From assembly GCF_021431965.1 (NCBI RefSeq), contig NZ_CP090370.1, positions 2,480,001 through 2,544,000 on the forward strand: a DNA stretch of 64,000 nt. Reading direction: 5' to 3'. Both the position numbers and the translations under genes were made by a program. This DNA is from Erythrobacter sp. SDW2 (lineage in GTDB: Bacteria > Pseudomonadota > Alphaproteobacteria > Sphingomonadales > Sphingomonadaceae). Of this stretch, positions 25,099 to 44,937 are shown in pieces (the first letter of the stretch is position 1; each line of letters starts with the position of its first letter). Under the pieces are notes generated by a model that saw nothing but the letters and a program-made list of their open reading frames with translations, did no database searches and was not told the DNA's origin.

Positions 25099-25174
<76 letters not shown>

Positions 25175-25228: not shown

Positions 25229-25244
25229 TTGCAATCGATTGCAT
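25229..25244 (+). promoter_or_regulatory. LacI-family operator O1, before the MFS permease gene
   Basis: TTGCAATCGATTGCAT contains the 14-bp perfect palindrome TGCAATCGATTGCA (25230-25243). It overlaps a likely -10 element (CATAAT, 25242-25247) and lies 37 bp before the permease ATG. The same core CAATCGATTG recurs at three other sites in this sugar locus. Confidence 0.8.
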
Positions 25245-25280
25245 AATAGCATAGCCGTGCTCCCGGAGAGAGGGAAATTC

Positions 25281-26651
25281 ATGGACGACGCACGCAAGCC
25301 GCATGTCACCCTGGGCCAGATCCTGAGCATGAACCTGGGGTTCCTGGGCCTTCAGTTCAGCTTCGGGTTGCAGCAGGGCAACATGGGGCCGATCTATTCG
25401 TTCCTGGGGGCCGAAGAAAGCCAGCTGCCGCTGTTGCAACTGGCCGGGCCGCTGACCGGGCTGATCGTCCAGCCGATCGTCGGCGCGCTGAGCGACCGGA
25501 CATTGTCGAAGCTTGGGCGCCGCACGCCCTATTTCCTCGTCGGCGCGATCATGTGCGCGGTCGGGCTGTTCTTCATGCCGCTGTCGGTTTCGATCATGTC
25601 GGCGGTGGCGTGGCTGTGGATCCTCGATGCCGGCAACAATATCACCATGGAGCCCTATCGCGCCTATGTTGCCGACCGGCTCAATCCGGAGCAGCGGCAG
25701 GCCGGTTTCCTGACGCAGAGCGCTTTTACCGGGCTTGCGCAGATGCTCGCCTTTCTCACCCCATCGGTGCTGGTGCTGATGGGCATGGACCGCGACTGGG
25801 TGGACCAGCACAACATCCCCTACACTGTCCGTACAGTGTTCTGGGTCGGCGCTGTGCTATCGCTCGCCACCATCGTCTGGTCAGTCACCCGCGTTCCCGA
25901 ACTCCCCCTGACAGCCAGGGAACGCGAGTGGATAGAGAGTCAGCCAAAAGGCTTCGCCGCGACCTTCGTCGAGATCGGTTCTGCCCTTCGCGTTATGCCC
26001 ACCCCGATGCGCAAGCTGGGGGTGATGATGCTGTTCCAGTGGTTCGCCATGTCGGGATACTGGGGCTATGTCATCTACACCATCGGGCGGAGCGTCTATG
26101 ATACTGCCGACCCGGCCAGCGACGGATTCCGCCAGGCGGTGCTGACCAATGGCGAGATGGCCGCGTTCTACAACGGCATCGCGTTCCTCGGGGCTTTTGC
26201 CATGGTGCCGATTGCCAGGCGGATCGGGGCCGGGCCCTTGCATGCGCTGATGCTGGCGGCGGGCGGCGTCTCCATGCTGCTGCTGCCCGGCGTGACCGAC
26301 AAGGCGATGCTGTTCGCGGTCATCATCGGCGTCGGCCTCGCCTGGGGCAGCATCATGGGCAATCCCTATATCATCCTGTCCAATTCCATCCCGCCCGAGC
26401 GGGTCGGGGTCTACATGGGCATCTTCAACATGATGATCGTGATCCCGATGCTGCTGTTCGCCTTTGTCATGTCATCGGTGAACCTCGGCTTCGGGCAGAT
26501 CGGGCTTGGCCTTTACGACGGGCTTCTCGGCGGCGATCCGCGCAATGTGCTGCGAGTGTCGGGCGTGTGCATGTTTATCGCCGCGCTGGCGGTGCTGTGG
26601 GTGCGCGAGGGCTGGAAGAAGCCGGTCGAGGGTGTACCAGCGGGGACATGA
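25281..26651 (+). CDS. MFS sugar permease (sucrose/oligosaccharide, GPH/SUT-like)
   Basis: A 456-residue inner-membrane transporter with about twelve hydrophobic segments. The loop 2-3 signature 'GALSDRTLSKLGRRTPYFLVG' matches sucrose/glycoside permeases of the GPH/SUT type, including Xanthomonas SuxC-like proteins. Mid-protein 'MEPYRAYVADRLNPEQR' is another shared motif. GGAGAGAGGG just upstream sets the ATG at 25281, rather than 25239. Its stop overlaps the GH36 start (ATGA), so the operon permease-GH36-GH68 is translationally coupled. Operator O1 sits in its promoter. The exact sugar is inferred from the neighbouring enzymes. Confidence 0.9.
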   Translation: MDDARKPHVTLGQILSMNLGFLGLQFSFGLQQGNMGPIYSFLGAEESQLPLLQLAGPLTGLIVQPIVGALSDRTLSKLGRRTPYFLVGAIMCAVGLFFMPLSVSIMSAVAWLWILDAGNNITMEPYRAYVADRLNPEQRQAGFLTQSAFTGLAQMLAFLTPSVLVLMGMDRDWVDQHNIPYTVRTVFWVGAVLSLATIVWSVTRVPELPLTAREREWIESQPKGFAATFVEIGSALRVMPTPMRKLGVMMLFQWFAMSGYWGYVIYTIGRSVYDTADPASDGFRQAVLTNGEMAAFYNGIAFLGAFAMVPIARRIGAGPLHALMLAAGGVSMLLLPGVTDKAMLFAVIIGVGLAWGSIMGNPYIILSNSIPPERVGVYMGIFNMMIVIPMLLFAFVMSSVNLGFGQIGLGLYDGLLGGDPRNVLRVSGVCMFIAALAVLWVREGWKKPVEGVPAGT

Positions 26652-28762
26652 CCACACTTCACGCACTTCACACGGCCCAGGCCAGCATCGTGCTCGAGCA
26701 TGACCCCAAGCGGGGGGTGCTGTGGCGACACTGCGGGCTGCGGGTCGAACCTGATTTCGAGGGGGGCGATCTGCCCAAGGCGAGCGAAGGGCGCGGGCTG
26801 GCTTCGTTTGCGCTCAACCGGGATATCGGCATGCCGTTGGTCCCGTCTTCCGGGCTGGGATGGTTCGGGCCTGCTGCGGTGCAAGTGCGCGATGCGGATG
26901 GGACGCTGGTCGTGTTCGCCCCTGACACCTGCGCCGTCGAGGCGAGCGAGGATGCGCTGTCGATCACCCTGTCCGACACGGTTTCGGGGCTGGAGTGGAC
27001 CGGCAGCTTTGCTGCCCTCCCGGGTGGAGCCATCCGGGCCTCGGCTGCAATTCGCAACAAGGGTGACGCGCCGGTAATGCTGGCCGGGCTGGCGAGCTTG
27101 CAGCTACCACTCGCCGCCAGCTTCGCGCAGCTCATCTCGTGGCGCGGGCGGCACAATGCCGAGCTCAACGCGTATGTCGAGGCCATGCCGCAGCAGCGCT
27201 GGGAGAAGGTAGGCCGGCGCGGGCTGTCGGGCCATGGCGGGCCGCCGGGGCTCTATGTGCTGGGGCAGGACGCCGGGTGGCACAGCGGGCTCGCAATGGC
27301 GGTTCAACTCGAATGGTCGGGCGACCACAGCCTCGCGATCGAGCGCGATTACGAAGGCTATTGGACATTGTCCGCCGCTGCCACGCTTGCTCCGGGCGAG
27401 ATCGTGCTCGCACAGGGTGAAAGCTTCACCACACCTGCCGCTCTGCTCGCGATCTCGGACCAGGGCCGTAATGGTGCGATGGCTCAGATGCACGCGGCGG
27501 TGCGAGCAATGGTGCGCTGGCCCGGCGGCACCATGTCTCCTCGTCCGGTCCATCTCAACAGCTGGGAAGCCTGCTATTTCGATCACGACGCGGCGCGGAT
27601 CGAAGCGCTGGCGCAGGCCGGGGCCGAAGTCGGAATCGAGCGCTTCGTGCTCGATGACGGCTGGTTCAAGGGGCGGCGCGACGATACCGCAGGCTTGGGC
27701 GACTGGTTCCCCGATCCGCAGACCTATCCCCATGGCCTCGCCCCGCTCGCCGCGAAGATCGAGGCCATGGGCATGCAGTTCGGCTTGTGGGTCGAGCCCG
27801 AGATGATCAATCCCGATAGCGACCTCTACCGCGCCCATCCCGACTGGGCGCTGGCACTGCCGGGGCGCGAGCGGCCGACCGCGCGCAACCAGCTGGTGCT
27901 CGACATGCGACGCGAAGATGTGCGCGACTACCTGTTCGAACGGCTCGACGCGGTGCTCAGAGCCGCGCCGATCGGCTATCTCAAGTGGGACCACAACCGC
28001 GATCATGCCCCCTCGGGCGGTGCAGCGCAGGTGCGCGGGACCTATGCACTGCTCGACCGGCTGCGGGCCGCGCATCCGGACGTCGAGATCGAAGGCTGCG
28101 CCGGGGGCGGCGGTCGCAGCGACGCAGGGCTCGTGCCCTATGTTCACCGCTTCTGGACCAGTGATAACATCGACGCCGTCGCGCGGGTCGGGATGCAGCG
28201 CGGCTTCAACGCCTTCCTGCCGCCGGAGCTGATGGGATCGCATATCGGCGCTAGCCCTTCGCATGCCACCGGGCGCACCCAGTCGATGGCCTTTCGCGGT
28301 GCCATTGCCAGCATGGGGCACCTGGGCGTGGAGCTTGACCCCGCCACGCTGGCCGAGGCCTACCGCGCCGAGCTGGCGCGATGGATCGCCTTCGCCAAGG
28401 AATGGCGCCACCTGCTCCACGGGACCGATGTTGCGCTGGGCGAAGGCACCGACAGCCTGCGCTGGCAGGCCGCGGGCACGCCGGGCCACAAGCTGCTCTA
28501 TTGCATCCGCACAACCCCGCCGCTGGACCGCCGTCCGCAGCCGCTCCCGCTGCCCTTTGCCGCTTCGTGCATGGCGTGGGACGTGCGGCTGCTCGCGGTG
28601 GCCGAAGAGCCCGGTCATGGCATCCCCCGCTCGCACCTCCACGACCGGATGGAGCGCGAGTCGGTCCGCTACACCGGCAGCTGGCTCGCCAACGCGGGAC
28701 TGCCGCTCCCTCTGCAGAAGGCACAAAGCGTCGCCATTTTCGAGATGAAGGAAGTTCCCTGA
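26648..28762 (+). CDS. alpha-galactosidase, GH36
   Basis: Removes alpha-1,6-galactose from raffinose-family sugars or melibiose. The 704-residue length and layout match GH36: an N-terminal beta-supersandwich, then a catalytic barrel with 'NSWEACYFD', 'FVLDDGWFKGRRDD' and 'GLWVEPEMINPDSDL'. The nucleophile is D448 in 'YLKWDHNRD' and the acid/base D506 in 'FWTSDNID'; 'EGCAGGGGRSD' is also conserved. No signal peptide, so it acts in the cytoplasm on imported sugar. The start overlaps the permease stop by four bases, and its own stop overlaps the GH68 start by one base. Confidence 0.93.
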   Translation: MTTLHALHTAQASIVLEHDPKRGVLWRHCGLRVEPDFEGGDLPKASEGRGLASFALNRDIGMPLVPSSGLGWFGPAAVQVRDADGTLVVFAPDTCAVEASEDALSITLSDTVSGLEWTGSFAALPGGAIRASAAIRNKGDAPVMLAGLASLQLPLAASFAQLISWRGRHNAELNAYVEAMPQQRWEKVGRRGLSGHGGPPGLYVLGQDAGWHSGLAMAVQLEWSGDHSLAIERDYEGYWTLSAAATLAPGEIVLAQGESFTTPAALLAISDQGRNGAMAQMHAAVRAMVRWPGGTMSPRPVHLNSWEACYFDHDAARIEALAQAGAEVGIERFVLDDGWFKGRRDDTAGLGDWFPDPQTYPHGLAPLAAKIEAMGMQFGLWVEPEMINPDSDLYRAHPDWALALPGRERPTARNQLVLDMRREDVRDYLFERLDAVLRAAPIGYLKWDHNRDHAPSGGAAQVRGTYALLDRLRAAHPDVEIEGCAGGGGRSDAGLVPYVHRFWTSDNIDAVARVGMQRGFNAFLPPELMGSHIGASPSHATGRTQSMAFRGAIASMGHLGVELDPATLAEAYRAELARWIAFAKEWRHLLHGTDVALGEGTDSLRWQAAGTPGHKLLYCIRTTPPLDRRPQPLPLPFAASCMAWDVRLLAVAEEPGHGIPRSHLHDRMERESVRYTGSWLANAGLPLPLQKAQSVAIFEMKEVP

Positions 28763-29895
28763 TGGCGAGTATGCCAATTGCCACCGCTTCCACGTTTGAA
28801 CCATCCGAGATCAGTCATTGGCGGCCGCAGCGGTTTGACACGCTCCCGCCCCTACGCCTTGTCACGGCAGCGGACGCACAGCCGATCACGCCCGATCTCG
28901 ACCTGTGGGACAGTTGGCCCTTGCAGCACGAGGACGGCTCGACCGTTACGGTAGAGGGCGCGCAATATTGGTTCTTCCTCTCGTCGCAAAAGTTCGACGA
29001 TCCCGGCCAGCGCCACTTCCACGCCCGGATCCGCCTGATGCGGCTCAAACACAGCGTATGGACCGACCTGGGCAATGCCATGCCCGACGGCTTCTCGCCC
29101 GGCGAAGCGGAATGGGCAGGGTCCTGCGTTTTGCATGACGACGGGCAGTCGGTCACCCTGTTCTTCACCGCCGCTGGGCGGCGCGGCGAAGGTTGCAGCT
29201 TCGAACAACGGATTTTCGGGACCCGCGGCGTGCTGGGCCCCGATGGACCTGGCCACTGGCAGACGCCCGAGGAACTGTTCGCCGCCGATGGCACGGTCTT
29301 CATGCCCGCCAACCAGCCGGGTGGTGCTCCGGGTGCGATCAAGGCCTTCCGCGACCCCGCCTGGTTCCGCGACCCGGCCCGCGGGCAGGCCTACCTGTTG
29401 TTTACAGGCAGCGCAGGATGGGACGACGATCCGCACAACGGCCTCGTCGGCTATGCCATGCTGGTCGACGGACGCTGGGAACTGGGCCAGCCGCTGATCC
29501 ACGCGGTGGGCGTCAACAACGAGATGGAGCGGCCGCATATCCTGGTTCGCGACGGGCGCTACTACCTGTTCTGGTCGACCCAGCGCCACACCTTCTCGCC
29601 ATCCGCCAATGCCGGGCCCAACGGGCTCTACGGCGCGGTGGCAAACAGCTTCACCGGGCCGTGGTTTCCGGTGAACGGCAATGGCTTGATCGCGACCAAC
29701 CCGCCGGAGGAGCCGACCCAGGCCTATAGCTGGTGGACCACCGGCGAAGGCGTGGTGTGGAGCTTTATCGACCATTGGGGAATGCAGGGCCGGACATTCG
29801 CCACCCATCCCGAAACGCTGCGCACGCAGTTCGGCGGGACACCTGCCCCCCGCTTTCGACTTGTCATTGACGGCGATGAAGTGCGGATCGCCTAG
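28762..29895 (+). CDS. GH68 fructosyl hydrolase/transferase (levansucrase-type sucrose-splitting enzyme)
   Basis: A 377-residue GH68 protein. The nucleophile is D50 in 'DLWDSWPLQ'. The transition-state stabiliser is in 'AFRDPAWF' near residue 198, and the acid/base is in 'NNEMERPHIL' near residue 256, all standard for clan GH-J. Levansucrases are usually exported, but no signal peptide is present, so an intracellular sucrose-cleaving role is more likely than polymer synthesis. The ATG overlaps the GH36 stop (TGATG). It converges with the LacI gene and shares a CTAG stop with it. Confidence 0.88.
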   Translation: MASMPIATASTFEPSEISHWRPQRFDTLPPLRLVTAADAQPITPDLDLWDSWPLQHEDGSTVTVEGAQYWFFLSSQKFDDPGQRHFHARIRLMRLKHSVWTDLGNAMPDGFSPGEAEWAGSCVLHDDGQSVTLFFTAAGRRGEGCSFEQRIFGTRGVLGPDGPGHWQTPEELFAADGTVFMPANQPGGAPGAIKAFRDPAWFRDPARGQAYLLFTGSAGWDDDPHNGLVGYAMLVDGRWELGQPLIHAVGVNNEMERPHILVRDGRYYLFWSTQRHTFSPSANAGPNGLYGAVANSFTGPWFPVNGNGLIATNPPEEPTQAYSWWTTGEGVVWSFIDHWGMQGRTFATHPETLRTQFGGTPAPRFRLVIDGDEVRIA

Positions 29896-30938
29896 GCGCT
29901 GGCGCGGATCACCAGTTCCGGCGGCATCACCAACGCTTCCGCATCCTCGCCGCTGATCCGGGCCATCAGCCGGCGGACCATCTGCGCTGCGCCGCCGGTG
30001 ATGTTCTGGCGGATCGTGGTCAGCTGCGGCACGGAATGGCGGGCCAGTGGCAGGTCGTCGAAGCCGATGACTTGGATATCGGCCGGGACCTGAATGCCCA
30101 GTTCGTGCAACTGGCGAATGGCCGCCATGGCAATCGCGTCCGAAGCGCACACCGCGCCTTCAATATCCCCGTCAAGCGCCGTCATGGCTATGCCGATCTC
30201 GTCGGTCATCTCGTCGATCGAGAGGTGCACCGGGACATGCTGCAAGCGCGCACCCCGACCGAAATCACCCACCGCCGCCTGGACTCCATGATATCGTTCT
30301 TCGATCTCGATACCGGTCGTGTCGCCGAGAAATACCAGCGAGCGCAGTCCCTTCTCAAGCAGGTACTCCGCCGCCATTCGCCCGCCGGCGAAGTTGTCCG
30401 TGCCGACCGAGCAATGCGCCTGGCCTTCGCGGTAACTGCCCCAAACCACCAATGGGGCATAGTCGCGCGCGACGGCTTCGATGGCGTCGTACTGGTCCGA
30501 CTGGCCGATCATCAGCACGCCGTCGACCATCCCCGAATTGACCACCCGGTCGAGCCAGTCGGGATGTTCCTGCGGGATCGCGCGGCTCAGCATCACGTCA
30601 AAGCCGCTTTCGGTCAACTCGTCGGCCAAGGCGCCGAGCAGAGTCATGAAGAACGGGTCTGAAATATGCTGGCGCCGGTCGTGGCCCAGCGGGATCACTA
30701 CGGCGATAACGCCGGTCTTCTGGCGGCGCAGCTTGCTCGCCATCTGGTTGACCTGAAAGCCGTGCTTGCGCGCCAGTGCCTGGATTTTCTCGCGGGTGCG
30801 GGCATTGACCATCGGCTTGTCCGCCAGCGCACGCGAAACCGTGCCGGCCGAAACACCCGCAATGCTCGCCAGTTCGGCGATATTGCGCACCCGCTTGACC
30901 GGGCCTTCCGCCGCAATGGTGCTGTCGTCCTCTGCCAT
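29892..30938 (-). CDS. LacI-family transcriptional regulator of the sucrose/raffinose locus
   Basis: A 348-residue LacI/GalR repressor. The N-terminal HTH and hinge read 'NIAELASIAGVSAGTVSRAL' then 'NQMASKLRRQKTGVIAV'. The sugar-binding core follows, with 'MIGQSDQYDAIEA', 'VGTDNFAGGRMAAEYL' and 'ASDAIAMAAIRQL'. Its gene is divergent from GH32, and the shared 112-bp region holds operator O2, so autoregulation is likely. Four copies of CAATCGATTG in this cluster are the expected targets. The inducer is probably sucrose, fructose or a related sugar (inferred). Confidence 0.93.
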   Translation of the reverse strand: MAEDDSTIAAEGPVKRVRNIAELASIAGVSAGTVSRALADKPMVNARTREKIQALARKHGFQVNQMASKLRRQKTGVIAVVIPLGHDRRQHISDPFFMTLLGALADELTESGFDVMLSRAIPQEHPDWLDRVVNSGMVDGVLMIGQSDQYDAIEAVARDYAPLVVWGSYREGQAHCSVGTDNFAGGRMAAEYLLEKGLRSLVFLGDTTGIEIEERYHGVQAAVGDFGRGARLQHVPVHLSIDEMTDEIGIAMTALDGDIEGAVCASDAIAMAAIRQLHELGIQVPADIQVIGFDDLPLARHSVPQLTTIRQNITGGAAQMVRRLMARISGEDAEALVMPPELVIRASA

Positions 30939-30982: not shown

Positions 30983-30998
30983 TTGCAATCGATTGTAA
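30983..30998. promoter_or_regulatory. LacI-family operator O2, between lacI-type gene and GH32
   Basis: TTGCAATCGATTGTAA is a 16-bp palindrome with one mismatch. It sits 52 bp before the GH32 GTG and 44 bp before the regulator ATG, so it can control both directions. Confidence 0.8.
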
Positions 30999-31050: not shown

Positions 31051-32367
31051 GTGCGCCCCCATTACCACTACACCCCGCAGGCCAACTGGCTGAGCGACCC
31101 CAATGGCCTCGTCCATGATGGCGATTGCTGGCACATGTTCTACCAGTACAACCCGCAAGGCGAGGACTGGGGTCATATGTCATGGGGCCACGCGGTGAGC
31201 CGCGACCTGGCACATTGGGACGAGCTCGCCCCTGCCCTACTCGATGACGAGCGCCGGATGGTATTTTCAGGCAGCGCCGTGATGGACCGGGCTGGCACCG
31301 CCGGCTTTGGACGCGACGTGATGGTGGCGCTCTACACTGCTGCCGCGACGGGCGAGCCACAGCATCAGGCGCAGGCGCTGGCATGGAGCAACGATCGCGG
31401 CACGAGCTGGACCGACTATCCGCGCAACCCGGTGCTCGACCTCGGCATGGCCGACTTCCGCGATCCCTATGTCTTCCGCCACGAGCCGAGCGCGAGCTGG
31501 GTGATGGTGGTGGTCAAGTCCAACGAGCAGCGGGCGCAGATCTATCGCTCGGCCGACTTGCTGCGATGGACGCTGGCTTCGGAAATCCCGGCACGCGACG
31601 CGCCGGGCCTAGTGTGGGAATGCCCGACATTGGTCGAACTGCCGATCTGCGGCTCCGGGCAGTCGCGCTGGCTGTTCAAAGTCGATGCGCTGAACGGAGC
31701 GCCGGGCGCGGGCGCGCTTTACCTCACGGGCGATTTCGACGGTCATACCTTCACCCCTGACGGGCCATGGCAGGTCGTGGATCATGGCCGCGATTTCTAT
31801 GCTGCCATCGCCTGGAACGGCCCACGCGATGCAGCAGGCCGCCCGGCCTGGATCGGCTGGATGGGCAACCATGCCTACCAGAAGCATTTCCGCAGGAAAG
31901 GTTGGCGCGGAGTGATGAGCACGCCGCGGCGAATGGGCTTGCTCGAAGCACCGGACGGGCTGCGCCTGGCGCAGCAGGTCGAGCCGAGCGTGGCGGGCCT
32001 GTTCGGGGACTTCGGGGCGCTGGCGACGGACGGGATGGCCGAGATGGCCAGCCGGATCGAACTCTCCGCCGCGTTTTCCGGTGCCCTGAGCCTTGCCGAC
32101 AGCGGCACCAGCCGCTTTACCATCCGTGCCGAAGGTGACCGCTGGCTGCTGCAGCGCCGCGACACCGCCCTGCCCTTCCTCGATCAGGACGCAGAACTCC
32201 GGCGCCGCGATGGCGAAGGCCTGTCGCTCTGGCTCGATAGCGAGACCATTGAAGTGCTGAGCCCTGATGGCACGGGCGCGGCCGGTTTCCAGCACCGTCC
32301 GGCTGACCCGCACCTATCGCTGGAAACCGACCAACCCCAGTTTGTTTCAACCGCCGCGCTGGCCTGA
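31051..32367 (+). CDS. sucrose hydrolase / beta-fructosidase, GH32
   Basis: Cleaves the fructosyl bond of sucrose and related fructosides. All three catalytic motifs are visible: D16 in 'WLSDPNG' (nucleophile), D138 in 'DFRDPYVF' (stabiliser) and E190 in 'WECPTL' (acid/base). A C-terminal beta-sandwich follows. There is no signal peptide, so it is cytoplasmic. The GTG start at 31051 is supported by AGGAG about six bases upstream. It runs opposite to LacI and its 3' end overlaps the fructokinase gene by 21 bp. Operator O2 controls it. Confidence 0.95.
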   Translation: MRPHYHYTPQANWLSDPNGLVHDGDCWHMFYQYNPQGEDWGHMSWGHAVSRDLAHWDELAPALLDDERRMVFSGSAVMDRAGTAGFGRDVMVALYTAAATGEPQHQAQALAWSNDRGTSWTDYPRNPVLDLGMADFRDPYVFRHEPSASWVMVVVKSNEQRAQIYRSADLLRWTLASEIPARDAPGLVWECPTLVELPICGSGQSRWLFKVDALNGAPGAGALYLTGDFDGHTFTPDGPWQVVDHGRDFYAAIAWNGPRDAAGRPAWIGWMGNHAYQKHFRRKGWRGVMSTPRRMGLLEAPDGLRLAQQVEPSVAGLFGDFGALATDGMAEMASRIELSAAFSGALSLADSGTSRFTIRAEGDRWLLQRRDTALPFLDQDAELRRRDGEGLSLWLDSETIEVLSPDGTGAAGFQHRPADPHLSLETDQPQFVSTAALA

Positions 32368-33246
32368 GGCGCGCCGCGCCAGCTCCAGCGCACCGGTGAT
32401 CCCGGCATCGTCGCCCAAGCCCGGCGCGACAATGTAGCTTGCCAAGCCCGGATCGAGCCGCGCATGCTGCACATAGCCCGCCAGCTTGACCTCGGCCTGT
32501 TGGCGCAGACTCTCGATCAGGCCCGGGGCCTTCATCACTCCGCCGCCGAAAATCAGCCGGTCGGGCATATGCATCAGCACCAGCGTGACGGCGAAATCGG
32601 CGAGGTAGGAGGCGATGAGCGGGACTGCATCAGGTTGGCGCGCGGCCATCTCGTCGAGCGAGGCCCCCCAGCGGTCGATGATCGCGGGTCCGCTGGCGAG
32701 ACCTTCGAGGCAATCGCCGTGGAACGGGCAGCGCCCGGCAAAGGGATCACGCGCCGCATCGCGCGGCGGGCGCACATGCCCCGCCTCAAGATGGCTGATC
32801 CCGCCGCGTGAAGCCCCCTTGTGCAACACGCCGGTGCCGATCCCGGTGCCGACGGTGGTATAGGCAAGCGTCTCGCAGCCTCGCCCTGCCCCCGCCAGCC
32901 ATTCGCCCAGCGCCGCGCCGTTGACATCGGTATCGACCACAATCGGCGCGCCGAGGCTCGCCAGCGCATCGTGGAATCGTGCCCCGCTCCAGCCCGGCTT
33001 GGGGGTGGTGGTGAAGGTGCCGTAGTCGGGAGAGGTCGGGTCGATATCAATCGGCCCGAAGCTGGCGATGCCGATCCCCGCCAGCGGTCCATGCTGCGCA
33101 AAGAACGCGGACATTTCAGGGAAAGTCTCCGCCGGAGTGCGTGTGTCCATCCGCGCTCGCGCCACGATGGTCCCGTCCATGCGCGCGACGGCGAGGACGA
33201 ACTTGGTCCCCCCGGCTTCGACCGCACCGATCAATGGCTCGCTCAC
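32347..33246 (-). CDS. ROK-family fructokinase
   Basis: A 299-residue sugar kinase that should phosphorylate the fructose released by GH32/GH68. Seen: the ATP-binding 'GAVEAGGTKFVLAVA', the catalytic aspartate in 'VVDTDVNGAALGEW', 'TTVGTGIGTGVLHKG', and the ROK zinc site 'GHVRPP..GRCPFHGDCLEG' (His-Cys-His-Cys). The zinc site sequence and length fit fructokinases of the Bacillus YdhR/Mak type. The gene lies 3' of, and antiparallel to, GH32. Its ATG overlaps the stop of the preceding TPR/oxygenase gene by four bases, so the two are coupled on the minus strand. Confidence 0.92.
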   Translation of the reverse strand: MSEPLIGAVEAGGTKFVLAVARMDGTIVARARMDTRTPAETFPEMSAFFAQHGPLAGIGIASFGPIDIDPTSPDYGTFTTTPKPGWSGARFHDALASLGAPIVVDTDVNGAALGEWLAGAGRGCETLAYTTVGTGIGTGVLHKGASRGGISHLEAGHVRPPRDAARDPFAGRCPFHGDCLEGLASGPAIIDRWGASLDEMAARQPDAVPLIASYLADFAVTLVLMHMPDRLIFGGGVMKAPGLIESLRQQAEVKLAGYVQHARLDPGLASYIVAPGLGDDAGITGALELARRASGQRGG

Positions 33247-34604
33247 CTGGTACTCCTTGTTGTTGCCGGCGCCACATCAAAGGCGACTGTAAGCCGCTCC
33301 TCGCCTTCGAAGGGCACAGTGCCGTGCCATGTCGTCGAGGGAAACAGCACCAGATGCCCAGGTCTCGGCGTGATGTATTGCGTCGGTTCAAGGCCCAGCC
33401 CCAGCTCGGGGGGCGGCATGCCCAGCGCCAGTTCACCCGCATGGTCGCGCCCGGTCTCGGGCGGCACAACAATGTAGAGCGCGGAGCTCGCCCAGCCGTG
33501 CGGATGGGTGTGCGCGCTGTGATGCCCGCCACCCGCCAGCCGCACAGACCAGCTGCCGCTGAAACGGATGGCATCAGGCTTGCGCGAAAGGAGAGGATGA
33601 ACGGGATCGTCGGGCAGGCCGTCACGCCAGCCGCGAACCGCCTCGGTTATCTTGCTGCGCAGCTGCCCGATCAGCGGATCGTGATGCAGCAACAGGTTGC
33701 GTTCGGTCTGCGTGCCGCCGCGCACCGATTGTTCGGGATAGGGGGCCGCCATGCGGTGCAGGCCGCGCAGGAATACTGCCAGATCGGCCAGCATGGCTTG
33801 CGGCAGGTCGAGATCGATGGCGCGGGCAAAGTCCCGTTCGAGCCAATCGGCGCGTTCGTCACCCGTCAGCCGCCAGCACAGGTTCACATAGGGCCAGAAC
33901 TGTCCGGCGTGGGGCGTGCCAAGCTGCCCCTCAGCCAGCAAAAGCGCCCGTGCAGGATCGCCATGGCGCAAGGCGTGCCGCACTTGCAGCAGCACCAGCC
34001 CCGGATCGTTCGAGCGCTGGTAGTCCGCGAAGATCGCCGGATCGCTGCCTGCCGCACCGCTTTCGCAATCGAGCCACAGGCCGAGCAAGGGCATCTCGCC
34101 CAGCGCGAGCACCTTGCGCGCACCCTCCCAATCCTTTGCCGCCGCGAGTTTGTGGAACCAGGCCTGCTTCAATGCGGCATTGCCTGGCTCACGCGTGACC
34201 GCCTCGGCAAAGCTGCGCAGCGGGTCGTCCCCGCCCGCCGTGGTGCGCAGGGTGGCGAGGGTATCGTGCCCTTCGATCCACGCAGGATTGCGCGCGAGGA
34301 TCCCGTCGAGCAGCCGCATCGCCCGCTCACCCTGCCCTTCGGACGCCAGCGCCAATGCGGCGTTGCGCACCACGTCCCTCCGGCCCGGATTGAGCAGCGC
34401 AGCGCGCTCGAACAGGGGCGTGGCCTCGAACCAGCCCTCCCAATGGAACTGCGCCTGCATGAAGGCGAGTGCGGGACTGTCCGGCATCTGCGCGATGGCG
34501 GCGTCAACGGCGGCGCAGGCGGTGGCCATATCCTGCGCGGCGTAAGCCGCCTGCGCCTTGGCGACGAGTTCCGGAACAGTTTCCTGCGCCACGGCAGCGA
34601 TCAC
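33243..34604 (-). CDS. TPR protein fused to putative 2OG-Fe(II) oxygenase domain
   Basis: A 453-residue protein. Residues about 1-250 form tetratricopeptide-like helices ('[20 protein letters not shown]', '[20 protein letters not shown]'). The C-terminal domain has the putative 2OG-Fe(II) oxygenase layout of family 2OG-FeII_Oxy_5: '[18 protein letters not shown]', then '[18 protein letters not shown]' with the distal histidine, and a terminal arginine-containing strand 'EERLTVAFD'. It starts with GTG overlapping the halogenase stop by four bases. The substrate is unknown; its place beside a halogenase-like flavoprotein and a TonB receptor suggests a surface or carbohydrate-linked modification. 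Confidence 0.82.
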
Positions 34605-36142
34605 ACCGCCGGGGCCTTGCCCGGAGCCTTACAATGCCGGTCAATGAATTGCTGGTGCGTGGTCTGTTTGGCCGCCTCGGCGACCATCGCAGCCTTGAGC
34701 CGGCCAAGCCATTCGCCCGGAGCCTGCTCGCGATAGCCCGCCACCGGGTCGCAAGCCTCCGGGATATTGCCCTGCCCGATATGCACCGCATGCCAGCTCG
34801 GCGGGCCGAACAGGTCCATGTCGCGGGCTATGTGGCGACCATAGCGGCGGAAATGCTCGATCTTGAACGCCAGCGTCTCCGGGATGTCCATGTCGCGGCA
34901 GTACCGCCACAGTTCGGAATCGTCCCGCGCAGTGAGCTTGTAGTGCAGCACCAGGAAGTCGCGGATGCGTTCGTATTCGGTGCGGGCGATATGGTTGTAC
35001 TCGTCACGCACCATCGGATCGAAGTTGCGGTCCGGGAACAGCGCCAGCAGCTTGGAAATCCCGGCCTGGATCAGATGCAGGCTGGTCGATTCCAGCGGCT
35101 CCATGAAGCCACTCGACAGGCCGATGGCGACGACATTCTTGTCCCAGAACTTGCGCCGCATGCCGGTGACGAAGCGCAGCCGGTTGGGCTGCGCCAGCGG
35201 CTCGCCATCAAGGTTGGCTAGCAGCGTCTGCTCCGCATCCTCGTCGCTGATGAACTTGCTGCAATAGACATAGCCATTGCCGATCCGGTGCTGCAGCGGG
35301 ATGCGCCATTGCCAGCCCGCCTCGCGCGCGGTCGAGCGGGTATAGGGCGTGAATTCGCCGGTGCCGTGACTGCACGGAATAGCCACCGCGCGGTCGCACG
35401 GCAGCCAGTGGGTCCAGTCCTCGTATCCGGCCCCGAGCGCGCCTTCGATCAGCAACCCGCGAAAGCCCGAGCAGTCGATGAACAGCTCGGCTTCCAGCAC
35501 CTGCCCGTCCTCGAGCGTGACCGAGCGGACAAACCCGCTTTCCCCATCGAGCGCGACATCGGCGATCTTGCCCTCGACCCGGGTGACGCCGCGCTTTTCC
35601 GAGTATGCGCGCAGATAGCGGGCATAGCGCCCGGCATCGAAGTGGAAGGCATAGTCGAAGGTCGATAGGACATTGCGCCCGTCGGGGCTCGGAATGGTGA
35701 AGCGGCCAGCCTTGGCCAGTTGCCACGCCATCGACAGCTCGTCGAAATCGCCCGCGTTCTCCCCTGCCAGCCGCGCTTGCAGCCACAGCTGGTGAACGTC
35801 GCGGATGTCCATCGGCTTGCCGTGCGGGCCGAAGGGATGGAAATAGCGTGTGCCCAGTGCCCCCCAGTCGACGAATTCGATCCCGAGCTTGAACGAGCCC
35901 TGCGTCTCGCGGATGAACTCGCGCTCGTCGATGCCCAGCATGGCGTTGAAGGTGCGGATCGGCGGGATGGTCGCTTCGCCCACGCCGACGGTGCCGATGG
36001 CTTCGGATTCGATCAGAGTGATCGCACACCCCTTGGGCAGCGCATTGGCCAGTGCCGCCGCCGTCATCCAGCCGGCGGAGCCGCCGCCGACCACCAGGAT
36101 CGACCGGATCGCCCGGTCCTGTGCTGTATCCGTCATGCCCAA
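34601..36142 (-). CDS. flavin-dependent tryptophan halogenase-like protein
   Basis: A 513-residue flavoprotein of the PrnA/RebH class. The FAD motif GGGSAGW is at residues 19-25. The catalytic lysine equivalent is in '[12 protein letters not shown]', and the halogenase signature W-x-W-x-I-P reads 'GWQWRIP'. The active-site glutamate region is '[15 protein letters not shown]'. Such genes commonly sit in TonB-receptor sugar loci of Caulobacter, Xanthomonas and sphingomonads, where the substrate is not known. I do not claim tryptophan as its substrate. It is preceded by a Rho-independent terminator and followed, overlapping, by the TPR/oxygenase gene. Confidence 0.88.
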
Positions 36143-36153: not shown

Positions 36154-36188
36154 GAAAAAAAGGGACCGGTAGACTGAACCACCGGCCC
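36154..36188 (-). terminator. Rho-independent terminator after the TonB receptor gene
   Basis: On the minus strand a GGGGCCGGT/ACCGGTCCC hairpin (one G-T pair; 36161-36188) is followed directly by seven T residues (36160-36154). It separates the TonB receptor from the halogenase operon and could act as a read-through attenuator. Confidence 0.8.
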
Positions 36189-36268
36189 CCTTGGTGGCGG
36201 TGGGGACCGCCGGGAGGATGTGCGGCGCGACTCCCATCGCCGCGCACAATCGCGTCAGTCGTTCAACT

Positions 36269-38788
36269 TCAGAACGTCAGGCGGATCGATGCGCTGACGT
36301 TGCGACCGGGGACCGGCGTGCCGCTGACAATAGCCGGAGTTACCCCGCCGTTGACCAGGGTCGCGCCATTGCCGCGCAGGTCATAGGTGTTGAACAAATT
36401 GTAGACGTTGAGGCCGACCTGGAGGTTGTCCAGCGGGTTCACACGCAGCGAGGCATTGAAAGTGGTCTTGCCTTCATAAGAACGCAGCGCATCGTCCACG
36501 ACACTCGTCTGCCCGGTGGCCGAGAGGCCGAAGGTCGCCAGGTCACCGAAGTCGTACGAAGCCGAGAGCGAGTAGCTCAGGTCCGGAATGAACGGTGCCT
36601 GGGTGTAGTTGGCCGCACCCGACAGCTTGCGCTGGGCGTCCGAGTAGGTGGCGTTGGCCACGAACAGCAGGCCGCCATTGCGATAGGTGCCGAAGAATTC
36701 GAAGCCCTTCGACTTGTAGTTGCTGTCGATGATGCAGCCACCGGCACCGCCGGGGCAGCGGGTGGCCGACAGTTCGAAGGTGCTCTGGCTGAAGTCACCC
36801 TTGAGCAAGGTCAGTTCGGCGGTCCAGTCCCCACCGGCGAGACCGCCGCGGGCCTTTACGCCCAGTTCGTACTGGTTGACGAAGTCGACCGACGGCGTGA
36901 CCCCGTCAGCGCCGCAACCGTTCGCTCCCGCGAGGGCCTGCGCCCCGGTGCATAGCGAACCGTCGTTGGCGATCTTGCCGCCCACGGTCTGGCGGTCGGC
37001 ATTGAAACGGCCGCCGCGCGATGCGCGGGCGAAGACGGAGACATCGCTCGACGCCTTGAACAGGCCGCCGACCGACCAGCTGGTGTAGCTGCGGCTGTAG
37101 TCGAGCTGTTCGCGCGTCCCGTTGGCCGTGATCGCTTCGATCCGCAGGTTCGGGCGGCTGGGATCGGGCGATACCAGGAAGGTGTTGCCCCCGGCGATGG
37201 TGTAACCGCTGGCTGCAACACGCTCGAACCGGACCGAAGCATCGAAGTTGAACAGGTCGCCATCGAGCACCAGCTGCGCGTAAGGCGCGGTGTTGGTGTA
37301 GCCCAGGTCATAGTCGCGGGCGCAGCAGCTGCCCCAGTTGTTGTTGTAGCCCGAGATACCCTGATAGGTGAGCTGGTTGCCCGCCGCATCGAAAAGGTCG
37401 AGCTGCGAGGGATTGTCGCCGCTCAGTTCGCGGGTCGACTTGTTGACATGCCAGTCCATCGCAATGGTCTGGTCCATGTAGAAGAAGCCGCCGCGTGCGG
37501 TCAGCACCATCGAACCGACATCGAATTCGCCGGTCAGGACAAGGTCGTTCACGAAGGCGCCCAGATCACGGATGTTCGTGGTGACGTTGACGTTGTTGTC
37601 GAGCAGTGCCCCGGTGAAGACCTGACCGGCGCGCGGGCCGTCGGCGTAGCGGATCTGTGCCACGGTCGCGCCGTTGACGGTCGATCCGATCACGCTGCCA
37701 CGGGTGGCGATGTTCAGGAACGGTGAGGAGAAGCTGCCCGAGACGTCCGAATAGCGCGCCCGGTTGTCGAGCGTGATGTTGTCACCGAATTCCCAGTGCA
37801 ACTGCGCCCCGATGTACTTCTGGTCGGTCGAGATGCCGTCGATGCCGACACGCTCGAACACACCCTGGCGGTTCAGGATCAGCTGGTTCTGGTTGTAGAT
37901 CGAGTAATTGGTCTGGCTGCGACCGTCGAAACCCGGATAGGCGCGGATGTCGGTGACCTTGCCGCCCGAGAAGTTCGCCAGCGCCGGGGCCCCGGTGTAG
38001 TTGATGCCCTGGGTATCGGCGACCTTGAAAAACAGGCGCAGGAACGAGGCACCGTCGCCGAATTCCTTGGTCAGGTTGCCCTTTACCTGGATGCTGTCGT
38101 TGATGGTATAATCGACACCCAGCGGGTCCTTGCCGCGCTGGAAATAGCCGCCGACGTGGAAATAGAGGTCTTCACCCAGCCCGCCGCCATAGCGGAAGTC
38201 GAGCTTGGTATCGTTGAAGTCGACACCCTTGGTCAGCTGGACCAGGCCGCCTTCCTTCTCGCCGGTGTGGCTGATGTAGTTGATGACTGCGCCCGGTGCC
38301 TGGCTGGCGAGGGTGGTCGCCGAACCGCCGCGAACCGCCTCGACCGTCGCGGTGGTGGTGTCGAACTTGGTCCAGTAGTCGTTGTTTCCGAACTGGATGT
38401 CGCCAAAGAGAACAAGCGGCAGGCCGTCTTCCTGCAGCTGCACGAAAGGCGCGCCGCCGGTGGCGACGGGAAGGCCGCGCACAGCGATGTTGGCGTTACC
38501 ACCGGGACCGGAAGTACCCGGCGTCTGGATGCCCGGCAGCAGGCGGAAGATTTCCGCTTCTGACTGCGGCTGGAAATTCTGGATGATCGCATCATCGATC
38601 GCGGTGACCGAGATGGAGCTTTCAAGCTGGGTTTGGTTACCCGCCGCAGCGGTAACGACGATTACGTTAAGGCCGGTCGCATCGACGCTGGCATCGGCGT
38701 CGGCATCCTGAGCCGAAGCAGCAACGGAAAAAGGCAGCGCAACGCCGAGCGCGAGCGCCGACACACAAGTGCGGTAGGTGGCTTTCAT
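36269..38788 (-). CDS. TonB-dependent outer-membrane receptor of the sugar locus
   Basis: An 839-residue receptor with a signal peptide (ending '..FSVAASAQ'), a TonB-box-like 'NVIVVTA', a plug domain ('QSEAEIFRLLPGIQ', 'GPGGNANIAVRGLPV') and a C-terminal beta-barrel ending in 'NVSASIRLTF', the terminal phenylalanine expected for outer-membrane insertion. AGGAGAGGG before the ATG at 38788 sets the start. Two operators, O3 and O4, lie upstream. It presumably carries raffinose/sucrose-type oligosaccharides across the outer membrane; the ligand is inferred from the regulon. Confidence 0.93.
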   Translation of the reverse strand: MKATYRTCVSALALGVALPFSVAASAQDADADASVDATGLNVIVVTAAAGNQTQLESSISVTAIDDAIIQNFQPQSEAEIFRLLPGIQTPGTSGPGGNANIAVRGLPVATGGAPFVQLQEDGLPLVLFGDIQFGNNDYWTKFDTTTATVEAVRGGSATTLASQAPGAVINYISHTGEKEGGLVQLTKGVDFNDTKLDFRYGGGLGEDLYFHVGGYFQRGKDPLGVDYTINDSIQVKGNLTKEFGDGASFLRLFFKVADTQGINYTGAPALANFSGGKVTDIRAYPGFDGRSQTNYSIYNQNQLILNRQGVFERVGIDGISTDQKYIGAQLHWEFGDNITLDNRARYSDVSGSFSSPFLNIATRGSVIGSTVNGATVAQIRYADGPRAGQVFTGALLDNNVNVTTNIRDLGAFVNDLVLTGEFDVGSMVLTARGGFFYMDQTIAMDWHVNKSTRELSGDNPSQLDLFDAAGNQLTYQGISGYNNNWGSCCARDYDLGYTNTAPYAQLVLDGDLFNFDASVRFERVAASGYTIAGGNTFLVSPDPSRPNLRIEAITANGTREQLDYSRSYTSWSVGGLFKASSDVSVFARASRGGRFNADRQTVGGKIANDGSLCTGAQALAGANGCGADGVTPSVDFVNQYELGVKARGGLAGGDWTAELTLLKGDFSQSTFELSATRCPGGAGGCIIDSNYKSKGFEFFGTYRNGGLLFVANATYSDAQRKLSGAANYTQAPFIPDLSYSLSASYDFGDLATFGLSATGQTSVVDDALRSYEGKTTFNASLRVNPLDNLQVGLNVYNLFNTYDLRGNGATLVNGGVTPAIVSGTPVPGRNVSASIRLTF

Positions 38789-38862
38789 CTGCAATCCCTC
38801 TCCTGAAACACCGGGTATCCCGCGCCTGGCGCAGCCCCCGAGTCGAGGGTCTTGTAACAATT

Positions 38863-38878
38863 ACGCAATCGATTGCAA
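38863..38878 (-). promoter_or_regulatory. LacI-family operator O3, before the TonB receptor gene
   Basis: The core GCAATCGATTGC (38865-38876) is a perfect palindrome of the same type as O1 and O2. It is the receptor-proximal of two sites whose centres are 23 bp apart. Confidence 0.8.
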
Positions 38879-38885: not shown

Positions 38886-38901
38886 TTACAATCGATTGCT
38901 T
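38886..38901 (-). promoter_or_regulatory. LacI-family operator O4, before the TonB receptor gene
   Basis: TTACAATCGATTGCTT carries the CAATCGATTG core (38889-38898). Its centre is 23 bp, about two helical turns, from O3, so two repressor dimers could sit on the same face. Confidence 0.75.
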
Positions 38902-42773: not shown

Positions 42774-44017
42774 CCGCCGCCTCGCCCGTGCCCGCCACAG
42801 ACGCCGCGACAGCCACGCCCGGCCCCGTGCCCACGCCGGAAGCGGTCCCGCTGGTCAATCCGGCCACAGGCCAGCCGCTGCTCGATCCTGAAACCGGCGA
42901 GCAGATGATGGGCGTGCCGGTGCAGCAGCCGACGACCTTCCTCGATCCTGCCACAGGCAAGCCGCTTGTCGACCCTGAGACCGGCGACCCCGTGGCAGCG
43001 ATAGCCGCAGTCCCGCCCACCCCAACACCTACGCCGGTCCAAACCAGCGATCCGATTGCGGCCGCCGACGGCGTCAGGGATGCCGTGTCGGAAAAGAGCC
43101 AGACCGTCGGCAGCATGGTCGACACACTCGACAGTATGGCGATTCAGATGGGGCACATGCGCATTTCGCTTTGGGATGTGCTGTTTGCGTCGGCCATCGT
43201 CCTGGTGATCGTGGTGGGGGCATGGTTCGCCACCAAGGCGATTAAGGTCCTCGTGGCCCGTGCCACACGACTCGATGAGACCCAAAGGCTGCTCTCGGAA
43301 AAGATCATCACGATCATCGTCTGGGTCGCGGCATTCTTCCTCGGCATCGACCTTCTTGGCATCGACCTCACTGCTTTCGCAGTGTTCTCCGGCGCCTTCG
43401 GCCTCGCCATCGGTTTCGGCCTGCAGAAGACCTTCGGCAACCTCATCGCGGGAATCATCCTGCTGATGGACAAGTCGATCAAGCCCGGCGACGTGATCGC
43501 AATTGCAGACCAGGCCGGGCAATCGACCTTCGGGCAAATCCGCCGGATTGGTATAAGGGCGGTTTCGATCACCACCCGCGACCAGCGGGAATATCTGATC
43601 CCGAACGAAAACCTGATGGTCAACCAGGTCGAGAACTGGTCCTACTCCAGCAAGAACGTGCGGATCCAGGTGCCGGTCGGTATCAGCTACAATTGCGATA
43701 TCAAGCGTGCCGAGGAGTTGATGCTGCAGGCGGCGAGGGACGCCAAACGCGTCAAGCAGACCCCGCCGCCGGTGGTATGGCTCGACAAATATGGCGAAAG
43801 CTCGGTCGATTTCGTCATCCATTGCTGGATTTCCGATCCCGAAGAAGGGGTGGGCAACGTCCGCTCCGACGTGCTCAAGCGCCTGTGGGACTTGTTCCAG
43901 CAGGAAGGGATCGAGATTCCGTTCCCGCAGCGCGACATCAACCTGCGCGGCAACGAGGAGTTCGAACAGTTGGTCGCCGCGATCGCCCAGCGTGTCGACA
44001 CCGACCGCAAAGACTAG
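42770..44017 (+). CDS. MscS-type mechanosensitive ion channel with repeated N-terminal tail
   Basis: A 415-residue channel. The pore helix is 'AVFSGAFGLAIGFGLQKTF' followed by 'NLIAGIILLMDKSIKPGDVI', the MscS beta-domain start. Three membrane helices precede it, the first near residue 130. The C-terminal vestibule includes 'YLIPNENLMVNQVENWS'. The first 100 residues are unusual: two 16-residue repeats, 'NPATGQPLLDPETGEQ' (30-45) and 'DPATGKPLVDPETGDP' (59-74), then a Pro/Thr stretch. Its ATG overlaps the metC stop by four bases. Probably releases solutes under osmotic downshock. Confidence 0.92.
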   Translation: MTAASPVPATDAATATPGPVPTPEAVPLVNPATGQPLLDPETGEQMMGVPVQQPTTFLDPATGKPLVDPETGDPVAAIAAVPPTPTPTPVQTSDPIAAADGVRDAVSEKSQTVGSMVDTLDSMAIQMGHMRISLWDVLFASAIVLVIVVGAWFATKAIKVLVARATRLDETQRLLSEKIITIIVWVAAFFLGIDLLGIDLTAFAVFSGAFGLAIGFGLQKTFGNLIAGIILLMDKSIKPGDVIAIADQAGQSTFGQIRRIGIRAVSITTRDQREYLIPNENLMVNQVENWSYSSKNVRIQVPVGISYNCDIKRAEELMLQAARDAKRVKQTPPPVVWLDKYGESSVDFVIHCWISDPEEGVGNVRSDVLKRLWDLFQQEGIEIPFPQRDINLRGNEEFEQLVAAIAQRVDTDRKD

Positions 44018-44039
44018 CTTCGCGATCGGGTAGCGTCGG

Positions 44040-44086
44040 TTTCAAAATGATCCCTACCTGTATGACAAGTCCCGATTTCAAAATCG
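44040..44086 (+). promoter_or_regulatory. palindrome and repeated TTTCAAAAT upstream of the sulfate-assimilation operon
   Basis: CGATTTCAAAATCG (44073-44086) is a 14-bp interrupted palindrome. The 9-mer TTTCAAAAT occurs twice, at 44040 and 44076, 36 bp apart. The site lies about 65 bp before cobA, within the only 130-bp gap ahead of the operon. It is a plausible regulator site for sulfur or cysteine status; the factor is unknown. Confidence 0.4.
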
Positions 44087-44151
44087 AAACTACCCAGCCT
44101 GCCAGTCATTCTGGTTAGCCGTTTCGGGCCACAGTGCCGAATATGGCGGCT

Positions 44152-44937
44152 ATGACACAGGCTGGAACTATTTATCTCGTCGGCGCGGGTCCCGGTGACG
44201 CGGACCTGCTGACGCTTCGGGCGGCACGATTGCTCCAACAGGCCGATCTTGTTGTCCATGACGGGCTGGTCGACACCTCGATCCTCGCCATGGCCCGTCC
44301 TGATGCGACACTGATCTCGGTCGCCAAGAGCCGGTCGAAGCACACCATGCCGCAGGAAGCGATCAACGCGCTGCTGGTGCGCGAAGCACTGGGTGGCCGC
44401 GATGTGGTGCGGCTCAAGGGCGGCGATCCCTTCATTTTCGGACGCGGTGGCGAGGAAGCCGAAGCCGCCCATGCCGCCGGCGTTCCGGTCGAGGTCGTCC
44501 CCGGTATCAGCGCCGCCAACGGTGCTGCCGCCGCCGCGCAGATCGCGCTGACCCACCGCGAGGCCTCCAGCGTCGTCAGCTTCGTCGCCGGCCAGTGCAA
44601 GGGGCTTTCCGAGCAAGACTGGTCGGGCCTTGCCGGCAAGGACCGCACGCTGGTGATCTATATGGGTCTCAAGACCGCTCCGCAGATTGCCGAGAAGCTG
44701 ATGGGTGACGGGCTCGCCCCCGACATGCCGGTGGCGGTGATCGAGAATGCCGCGCGTCCGCGTATGCGGGTGTTACGCGGCGTGCTCGCGGCGCTGCCCG
44801 ATATGGTTTCGCGAGATGGGGTCACTACCCCGGCCCTGATCGTGATCGGCGAGGTCGTCGCACGCCCCCGATCTGGCGACGACCTTGCCACCCCTGACCA
44901 AGAGCTGGCGGCGCTGGCCGTGGAGGCGATGCAATGA
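44152..44937 (+). CDS. cobA: uroporphyrinogen-III C-methyltransferase (SUMT)
   Basis: Makes precorrin-2 for siroheme and possibly cobalamin by two SAM-dependent methylations. The SUMT signature GAGPGD lies near residues 10-15, 'VVRLKGGDPFIFGRGGEEAE' binds SAM, and 'VPGISAANGAAAAAQI' and 'TLVIYMGLK' are conserved. ATGs at 44143 and 44152 and a GTG at 44134 are in frame; none has a Shine-Dalgarno sequence. I use 44152. It heads the operon cobA-DUF2849-cysI-DUF934-cysH and overlaps the next gene by four bases. A second, truncated SUMT-like segment ends the precorrin-2 dehydrogenase at 7.4-7.6 kb. Confidence 0.95.
   Translation: MTQAGTIYLVGAGPGDADLLTLRAARLLQQADLVVHDGLVDTSILAMARPDATLISVAKSRSKHTMPQEAINALLVREALGGRDVVRLKGGDPFIFGRGGEEAEAAHAAGVPVEVVPGISAANGAAAAAQIALTHREASSVVSFVAGQCKGLSEQDWSGLAGKDRTLVIYMGLKTAPQIAEKLMGDGLAPDMPVAVIENAARPRMRVLRGVLAALPDMVSRDGVTTPALIVIGEVVARPRSGDDLATPDQELAALAVEAMQ

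Follow-up and report, generated by a model that had tools for sequence, protein, structure and literature searches.

TonB-dependent receptors whose genes adjoin a gene for a cytoplasmic 2-oxoglutarate (2OG)/Fe(II) oxygenase are known from several bacteria, as in the pairs CciT-CciO of Caulobacter, Fiu-YbiX of Escherichia coli and PiuA-PiuC of Pseudomonas. CciO is a cytoplasmic dioxygenase that is strictly required for CciT function, the receptor protein still being made without it, and the three models in the legend to Fig. 9 of that paper do not include modification of the receptor (PMC12004947). Among flavin-dependent halogenases, BrvH and Xcc4156 have an open active site with short loops, where a peptide or a larger Trp derivative could orient (PMC7336383), and both halogenate free indole or indole derivatives in vitro (PMC5945002, PMC7336383). 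In this study, we analysed a 64-kb stretch of the genome of Erythrobacter sp. SDW2 (contig NZ_CP090370.1, positions 2,480,001 to 2,544,000; hereafter the window, in whose coordinates all its positions are given), in which a halogenase (HAL) and an oxygenase fused to tetratricopeptide repeats (TPR; OXY) are encoded together with a TonB-dependent receptor. As in the three pairs above, receptor and oxygenase genes belong together here; CciT, Fiu and PiuA serve iron uptake, whereas this receptor lies in a sugar locus, CciT-CciO is Fur-controlled, whereas LacI-type palindromes precede the receptor here, and OXY belongs to a different oxygenase family (PF13759 with TPR) from CciO, YbiX and PiuC and has a halogenase added to it. 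We found that a single residue of the receptor plug, Gln156, accompanies OXY across whole genomes. On the evidence below, we give a probability of roughly 0.5 to the reading that HAL and OXY serve specifically to mature the adjoining receptor. The pairing of receptor and oxygenase has precedents, and CciT-CciO is one for a receptor requiring a cytoplasmic dioxygenase; the reading as receptor modification is new.

A preliminary description of this locus had suggested that the enzyme pair may modify the receptor and had proposed a survey of how often it co-occurs with TonB receptors. That survey, made here, indicates an association far stronger than was then apparent. PF04820 genes were present at 1e-60 in 24 of 39 genomes of the window's family, and one hand-picked locus was taken from each of 20 of these 24 genomes, omitting G000, G002, G025 and G035 (G numbers denote genomes and L numbers sampled loci). 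A receptor gene lay within 0.8 kb of HAL or of a companion gene in 18 of the 20 loci; no receptor was recognised within 20 kb in the halogenase loci L102 and L104. L102 carries an unlabelled 1106-aa frame that is maybe a receptor. An OXY homologue was found at 1e-20 in 59 of 119 genomes, and in 19 of 20 loci (the 21 top-scoring places in other genomes, less G097) a receptor was adjacent or in the same gene string, which is the arrangement of CciT-CciO and PiuA-PiuC; at the remaining locus, L060, no receptor was recognised. Erythrobacter sp. SDW2 itself has eight full-length HAL genes at five places, at each of which a receptor lies within 1.2 kb of the nearest HAL, and a ninth match that is weak and partial. 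Both of its TPR-type OXY genes adjoin receptors, and two short-frame PF13759 genes (284 and 246 aa) lie at least 20 kb from the nearest receptor plug match. At L017 (5518-8123), the second TPR-oxygenase gene overlaps a methyltransferase gene by four bases, with a receptor adjoining.

OXY relatives pair with widely differing receptors, where their neighbours include TPR-Asp/Asn hydroxylases (PF05118), TPR-sulfotransferases (PF13469) and a methyltransferase; Cupin_8/JmjC proteins are among the neighbours of HAL. These are all families of kinds able to modify proteins, and the TPR-hydroxylases and TPR-sulfotransferases next to OXY relatives count in favour of receptor modification. TonB receptors of another class stand in tight strings with OXY and PF05118 and/or PF13469 genes at L055, L056, L057, L059 and L064-L070. 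At L066, an APS (adenosine 5'-phosphosulfate) kinase gene (12517-14226) lies between methyltransferase-like and sulfotransferase-like genes.

The receptor set was assembled from the window, four loci of the OXY survey, 20 of 51 further matches and the best 80 loci of a peptide-pattern search. After removal of duplicates it held 101 receptors, which the tree divided into the window's clade (87) and a sister clade (14). HAL lay beside the receptor in 80 of the 87, was absent at three, and the contig was too short at four. In the sister clade, neither HAL nor OXY was found beside the 13 receptors with enough flank (the contig of the fourteenth, L093, is too short), and a gene like those of glycoside hydrolase family 68 (GH68) was in the locus for 11 of the 14; OXY relatives occur elsewhere in some of these genomes, for example G001 and G073. 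Because these sucrose-type loci show neither enzyme beside the receptor, we rejected the idea that the pair is part of sucrose breakdown. The earlier remark that sucrose catabolism needs neither activity agrees with the wider sample, in which HAL and OXY follow TonB-dependent receptors rather than sugar genes. The window's receptor family extends from sphingomonads and other alphaproteobacteria (Asticcacaulis, Aquidulcibacter, Maricaulis) to gammaproteobacteria (Catenovulum, Rheinheimera, Alteromonas), in whose loci our query set finds mostly no sucrose genes, yet receptor, OXY and HAL stand together; GH97 is present in two of these loci (L144 and L158). Among the strains with the complete set are Novosphingobium subterraneum DSM 12447 (L146) and N. 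kunmingense CGMCC 1.12274 (L128).

In a first screen inside the window's clade, residue 156 was the receptor position best associated with OXY, being Gln in 63 of 63 receptors with OXY and Asn in 16 of 17 without it. The exception, L193, had Gln156 and no OXY beside the receptor; its genome has OXY and HAL side by side elsewhere, and in the 20 kb around them no receptor was recognised. L206, a related receptor found later, has Gln156 and no enzyme adjoining, and its genome likewise carries a HAL-OXY pair elsewhere. The two displaced pairs are at L201 (8859-11752) and on contig C9 of G1061 (43284-46186). The prediction that Gln156 receptors without a neighbouring OXY have a window-type OXY elsewhere in the genome therefore held for both, and HAL-OXY is kept as a unit even where the receptor stands alone. 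The final test set comprised 92 receptors of the HAL/OXY clade, 70 of them OXY-positive (OXY beside the receptor or elsewhere in the genome) and 22 OXY-negative. Gln156 was present in 70/70 of the former and 0/22 of the latter (21 Asn, 1 Ala). Residue 156 was the sole perfect match among 863 receptor positions, the runner-up having eight errors. It tracks OXY and not HAL: the Sphingobium receptors L164 and L168, with OXY and no HAL beside them, have Gln156, and receptors with HAL and no OXY have Asn or Ala. One of the latter is the new receptor L213, which has Ala156 and HAL and whose genome lacks OXY. The locus search did not select for Gln156, because the peptide patterns that found the best 80 loci include residues 157-165 and not 156; the constancy of the residues next to it is partly chosen by those patterns.

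OXY changed independently four times, and all four changes were concordant with residue 156. Random draws of four lineages of similar size produced a perfect position 2 times in 3000 when the real large clade was retained, and 0 times in 3000 without that constraint. Among 73 positions invariant in the 70 OXY-positive rows, residue 156 was the only one changed throughout a Sphingomonas lineage of 18 rows, throughout L166 plus L169, and in L151, and the joint change expected is 1.3e-5 if lineages are independent. Whole-genome searches for OXY covered 21 of the 22 OXY-negative rows (all except L191), and 17 of them gave no match at 1e-10. In the genomes of L153 and L170, two Gln156 receptors on contigs that end early, OXY was found, and both were counted as positive; the OXYs of L193, L206, L153 and L170 all fall with the window type in the OXY tree.

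The AlphaFold2 model of the receptor has a mean predicted local distance difference test score (pLDDT) of 83.4, with FoxA, PiuA and Fiu as top Foldseek matches. Confidence in the stretch around Gln156 is middling (block means of 63 and 85). This stretch, Gly153 to Trp163, immediately precedes the plug motif VEAVRGG, and its tryptic peptide ends ...FGDIQFGNNDYW-T-K/R. We looked for a plug motif universal to all receptors with HAL or OXY and saw none. TIGR01782 (TonB-Xanth-Caul; cut-off 310 bits) was missing from the NCBIfam matches of the window receptor; among other receptors it scored 616.6 (L013), 598.8 (L014), 540 (L016) and 181.8 bits (L015).

OXY is, as the preliminary description had it, a 2OG/Fe(II)-type oxygenase fused to TPR. 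PF13759 (2OG-FeII_Oxy_5, cut-off 27 bits) matches at its C end and TPR_19 at its N end, and the AlphaFold2 model (mean pLDDT 94.6) is helical in its N-terminal half, with an oxygenase domain of beta structure. It stays below the cut-off of TIGR02466 (40.2 versus 62.5 bits), and PF05118 (Asp_Arg_Hydrox, the AspH domain) was not among its Pfam matches. In such oxygenases the 2OG-binding Arg usually lies about 10 residues past the distal metal-binding His, and OXY has R437 after H427; in 81 of 82 rows, H365, H367, H427 and R437 are all conserved, and the one other row reads X or a gap there. The top Foldseek match was human AspH including its TPR domain (E 1e-9), followed by the collagen prolyl 3-hydroxylase P3H1 and 2rg4/3bvc; further matches included a Pseudomonas prolyl hydroxylase (also as its EF-Tu complex), plain TPR proteins and, lower down, PiuC (ranks 37, 40 and 48). 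Judged from the model, OXY most resembles protein hydroxylases in fold, which would favour a protein substrate. AspH combines TPR and oxygenase as OXY does and hydroxylates Asp/Asn of EGF-like domains (PMC6817910); unlike OXY, it acts in the lumen of the endoplasmic reticulum, OXY lacks its Pfam match, and the TM-score is just 0.32 across the whole chain. The PF13759/TIGR02466 proteins 2rg4 and 3bvc have a related oxygenase domain, but they are much shorter and lack TPR.

In HAL, the halogenase motifs first read from the sequence were all found again: a Gly-rich FAD motif from residue 19, Lys85 in SFKLG and W277-x-W279-x-I281-P282, together with Glu351 in EPLEST. Lys85 and Glu351, which we take to correspond to the catalytic K79 and E346 of PrnA, are conserved in 85 of 85 aligned window-type rows, the window included, and one or both are missing in 3 of 38 other HAL rows. 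At two receptor loci with four halogenases, Arg and Gly replace the catalytic Lys and Glu in one copy (L013, 10388-11839; L106, 7993-9480), and these paralogues are probably inactive partners of active copies. A halogenase at L099 (4904-6682) has no catalytic Lys. The nearest solved relatives of HAL are 9luq (506 bits), BrvH (6frl, 501 bits) and Xcc4156 (6y1w, 451 bits). By-eye alignments with 6frl, 6y1w and the Trp 5-halogenase 2wet show HAL to be short at both substrate-loop positions (positions as in PMC7336383), and on this comparison it is assigned to the open-site group of BrvH and Xcc4156. The term 'TonB' does not occur in the main texts of PMC7336383 and PMC5945002.

The target of HAL on the receptor, if there is one, would be an aromatic residue. 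All 92 receptors retain Tyr162, Trp470 and Trp509. Trp163 differs between the clades, being Trp in 10 of 11 receptors against Phe in 14 of 14 of the sister clade; as sole halogenase target it was rejected, since three lineages have Phe there despite retaining HAL (L119; L127; L081 with L163). Tyr162 is absent from the sister clade, but this is a single change on the tree and the residue lies within the search pattern. HAL was lost in one lineage at most, because the L168 genome has no HAL at 1e-100 and that of L164 only a relative of 53% identity.

Taking these results together, we place the action of the enzymes on the receptor because HAL-OXY can leave the receptor locus yet stay in the genome, because the plug residue differs where OXY has been lost, with the sugar genes mostly retained, and because the closest structural matches of OXY are enzymes that hydroxylate proteins. 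No signal sequence is evident in either enzyme (by eye), so both would act in the cytoplasm on the receptor precursor, that is, on the newly made, unfolded chain before export. The TPR half of OXY would hold this chain while the Fe(II)/2OG half oxidised the plug stretch, most likely at Gln156 or a neighbour, and HAL, with a BrvH-like open active site, would halogenate an aromatic residue of the same receptor, the candidates being Tyr162, Trp163, Trp470 and Trp509. Export would follow, and the plug loop of the modified receptor would be adapted to the sucrose- or raffinose-type sugar of the LacI-controlled locus. Receptor linkage and one plug residue covarying with OXY thus speak for the earlier suggestion of receptor modification; the modification as such, and halogenation in particular, would go beyond them.

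Several observations weigh against this reading. With respect to HAL, no receptor position tracks the rows without it, Trp163 has become Phe where HAL is kept, Trp is not seen at the equivalent of residue 163 in receptors of other classes that carry HAL, and 6 of 7 sister-clade genomes searched hold PF04820 relatives elsewhere, among them halogenases nearly as close as window-type HAL (63% identity in G298 and 60% in G172). With respect to OXY, the usual 2OG/Fe(II) metal triad is His-x-Asp/Glu ... His, whereas OXY has H365-x-H367 ... H427, and the AspH match may owe part of its rank to the TPR half. Hydroxylation of Gln would be unusual chemistry; Gln156 could be a recognition residue, or it may lie near the ligand site, in which case a change of ligand could explain its covariation. 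As only four independent changes of OXY are available, the sign test cannot reach 0.05, and its p of 0.125 is the best value that four pairs allow. L213 is a long branch on which 5 of the 73 otherwise invariant positions changed, and L151 is a metagenome-assembled genome (MAG); several genomes are MAGs, so OXY absence can reflect incompleteness. The genomes of L179, L183, L185 and L195 hold distant OXYs only (62-152 bits; that of L183 on a very long branch), which were counted as negative because they group with OXYs of other receptors, and which would make four exceptions if scored as positive. L152 was counted as positive on a 65-bit match alone and L160 on a 42-bit frame cut at the contig end, its genome search giving no match. 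Finally, the argument leads from gene order, intact active-site residues, receptor linkage and the covariation of one residue to catalysis on the receptor, its site, its chemistry and its benefit, and each of these four would be a further step.

The most serious alternative, which we nevertheless consider unlikely, is that the pair acts on an imported or accompanying small molecule, such as a sugar conjugate, a glycoside or a chelator, and that residue 156 touches the ligand. The position of the plug stretch just before VEAVRGG, close to what we take to be a substrate-binding loop of BtuB, suits this explanation, and substrate chemistry is favoured in print for the receptor-linked 2OG enzymes PiuC and CciO (PMC12004947, PMC12004943). 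However, the sugar genes are largely alike whether OXY is present or not (at least one of GH32, GH36, GH68-like and sucrose major facilitator superfamily [MFS] genes within 10 kb in 58 of 70 OXY-positive versus 16 of 22 OXY-negative loci), OXY relatives pair with very different receptors, a sugar offers the halogenase no aromatic target, and in three OXY-negative lineages residue 156 is the only one to have changed among the positions fixed in OXY-positive rows. Less probable still is a clade effect, in which chance substitutions at residue 156 coincide with gene losses and the target of the enzymes lies elsewhere. The small number of independent changes leaves room for it, as does the fact that one clade supplies 18 of the 22 OXY-negative rows; against it stand the random-lineage controls and the joint expectation given above, and the whole-genome checks and the new receptor L213 came after the initial lead.

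It is improbable that OXY serves as a chaperone or assembly factor of the TPR kind, binding but not altering the plug stretch, with HAL having an unrelated role: the TPR domain and the His-x-His motif would fit, but the candidate metal and 2OG residues, so widely kept, would be superfluous in a chaperone. Least likely of all is that HAL merely rides with receptor genes and that its product is a halogenated compound for signalling or defence, or free hypohalite, as the in vitro activity of BrvH and Xcc4156 on free indoles might suggest, since no maker of an aromatic compound was recognised among the scanned neighbouring genes, HAL kinds mostly go with matching receptor kinds in the loci examined, and indole is called an unlikely natural substrate in the BrvH paper (PMC5945002).

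The features of the locus are listed in Table 1. Re-reading of the sequence agreed with the coordinates, strand and both reading frames first given for the pair, with the four-base overlap of HAL and OXY (34601-34604), and with its position between a TonB receptor and a sugar kinase, which is of the ROK family. A second four-base overlap, of OXY and the ROK kinase gene (33243-33246), had not been described. The receptor gene lies upstream of HAL on the same strand with a gap of 126 nt, and its true start is probably an ATG about 25 codons into the open reading frame (ORF). The terminator-like hairpin in this gap probably lowers read-through from the receptor gene into HAL, so HAL and OXY are probably less abundant than the receptor. 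The palindrome GCAATCGATTGC has four matches at no more than one mismatch in the 64 kb, where 0.43 are expected; the copies ahead of the receptor are likely LacI operators, and the locus looks like a single LacI-controlled sucrose/raffinose regulon that includes HAL and OXY. The assignment to a sugar locus stands; since GH36 melibiase, GH32 and GH68-like genes are all present, raffinose-type sugars fit better than sucrose alone. The MFS gene scored 76.7 bits against the sucrose symporter model TIGR01301, under its cut-off of 511, and its real start is probably downstream of the listed one; the listed GH68-like ORF begins too early and overlaps GH36. A tRNA-Thr gene (TGT; 25099-25174), a possible insertion site, lies directly upstream of the sugar locus.

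Table 1. Genes and sequence elements of the receptor-HAL-OXY locus in the window.
Feature	Position	Strand	Remarks
TonB-dependent receptor	36269..38860	-	PF00593 65.1 bits, PF07715 42.1 bits; 863-aa ORF
Plug stretch G153-D-I-Q156-F-G-N-N160-D-Y162-W163	38372..38404	-	Q156 separates OXY-positive from OXY-negative receptors in 92/92
Receptor codon Q156	38393-38395	-	
Receptor codon Y162	38375-38377	-	
Receptor codon W163	38372-38374	-	
HAL, flavin-dependent halogenase of the BrvH/Xcc4156 kind	34601..36142	-	PF04820 634.5 bits (cut-off 21)
OXY, TPR solenoid with 2OG/Fe(II)-type oxygenase domain	33243..34604	-	PF13759 71.4 bits, TPR_19 29.1 bits
Terminator-like hairpin with T run, between receptor and HAL	36159..36192	-	1 found versus 0.1 expected (shuffles)
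Palindrome GCAATCGATTGC, first copy before receptor	38865-38876		
Palindrome GCAATCGATTGC, second copy before receptor	38888-38899		one mismatch
Palindrome GCAATCGATTGC, between LacI and GH32 genes	30985..30996		one mismatch
Palindrome GCAATCGATTGC, before MFS gene	25231..25242		
ROK-family sugar kinase	32347..33246	-	PF00480 167.2 bits
GH32 sucrose/fructan hydrolase	31051..32367	+	PF00251 257.9 bits
LacI-family regulator	29892..30938	-	PF00356, PF13377
GH68-like levansucrase/invertase	28381..29895	+	PF02435 176 bits
GH36 melibiase (alpha-galactosidase)	26567..28762	+	PF02065 384 bits
MFS sugar transporter	25239..26651	+	PF07690 78.6 bits

Halogenase-like genes beside TonB receptors had been said to be known from Caulobacter and Xanthomonas; our literature search, judged by titles and abstracts, found no paper on them. 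Xanthomonas genes called 'nix' have reportedly been the subject of work. A term search of PMC1790865 found no mention of a halogenase.

The oxygenases CciO, PiuC and YbiX and the halogenases BrvH and Xcc4156 are without an agreed substrate, and a single receptor residue that tracks OXY across whole genomes points to where a modification could be sought. If the receptor is the substrate, an outer-membrane transporter would be enzymatically halogenated or hydroxylated, and its ligand binding could be retuned in a way invisible in its sequence. Tentatively, sphingomonads and marine gammaproteobacteria might edit their outer-membrane transporters post-translationally, with dedicated cytoplasmic halogenases, TPR-oxygenases, TPR-Asp/Asn hydroxylases and TPR-sulfotransferases modifying the plugs of matched receptors before export; here, OXY would act at or next to Gln156 and HAL on an aromatic residue. 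The same principle could extend to CciT, Fiu and PiuA. If true, it could explain why these receptors travel with a cytoplasmic dioxygenase, and it could bear on the uptake of drug-siderophore conjugates via PiuA and Fiu.

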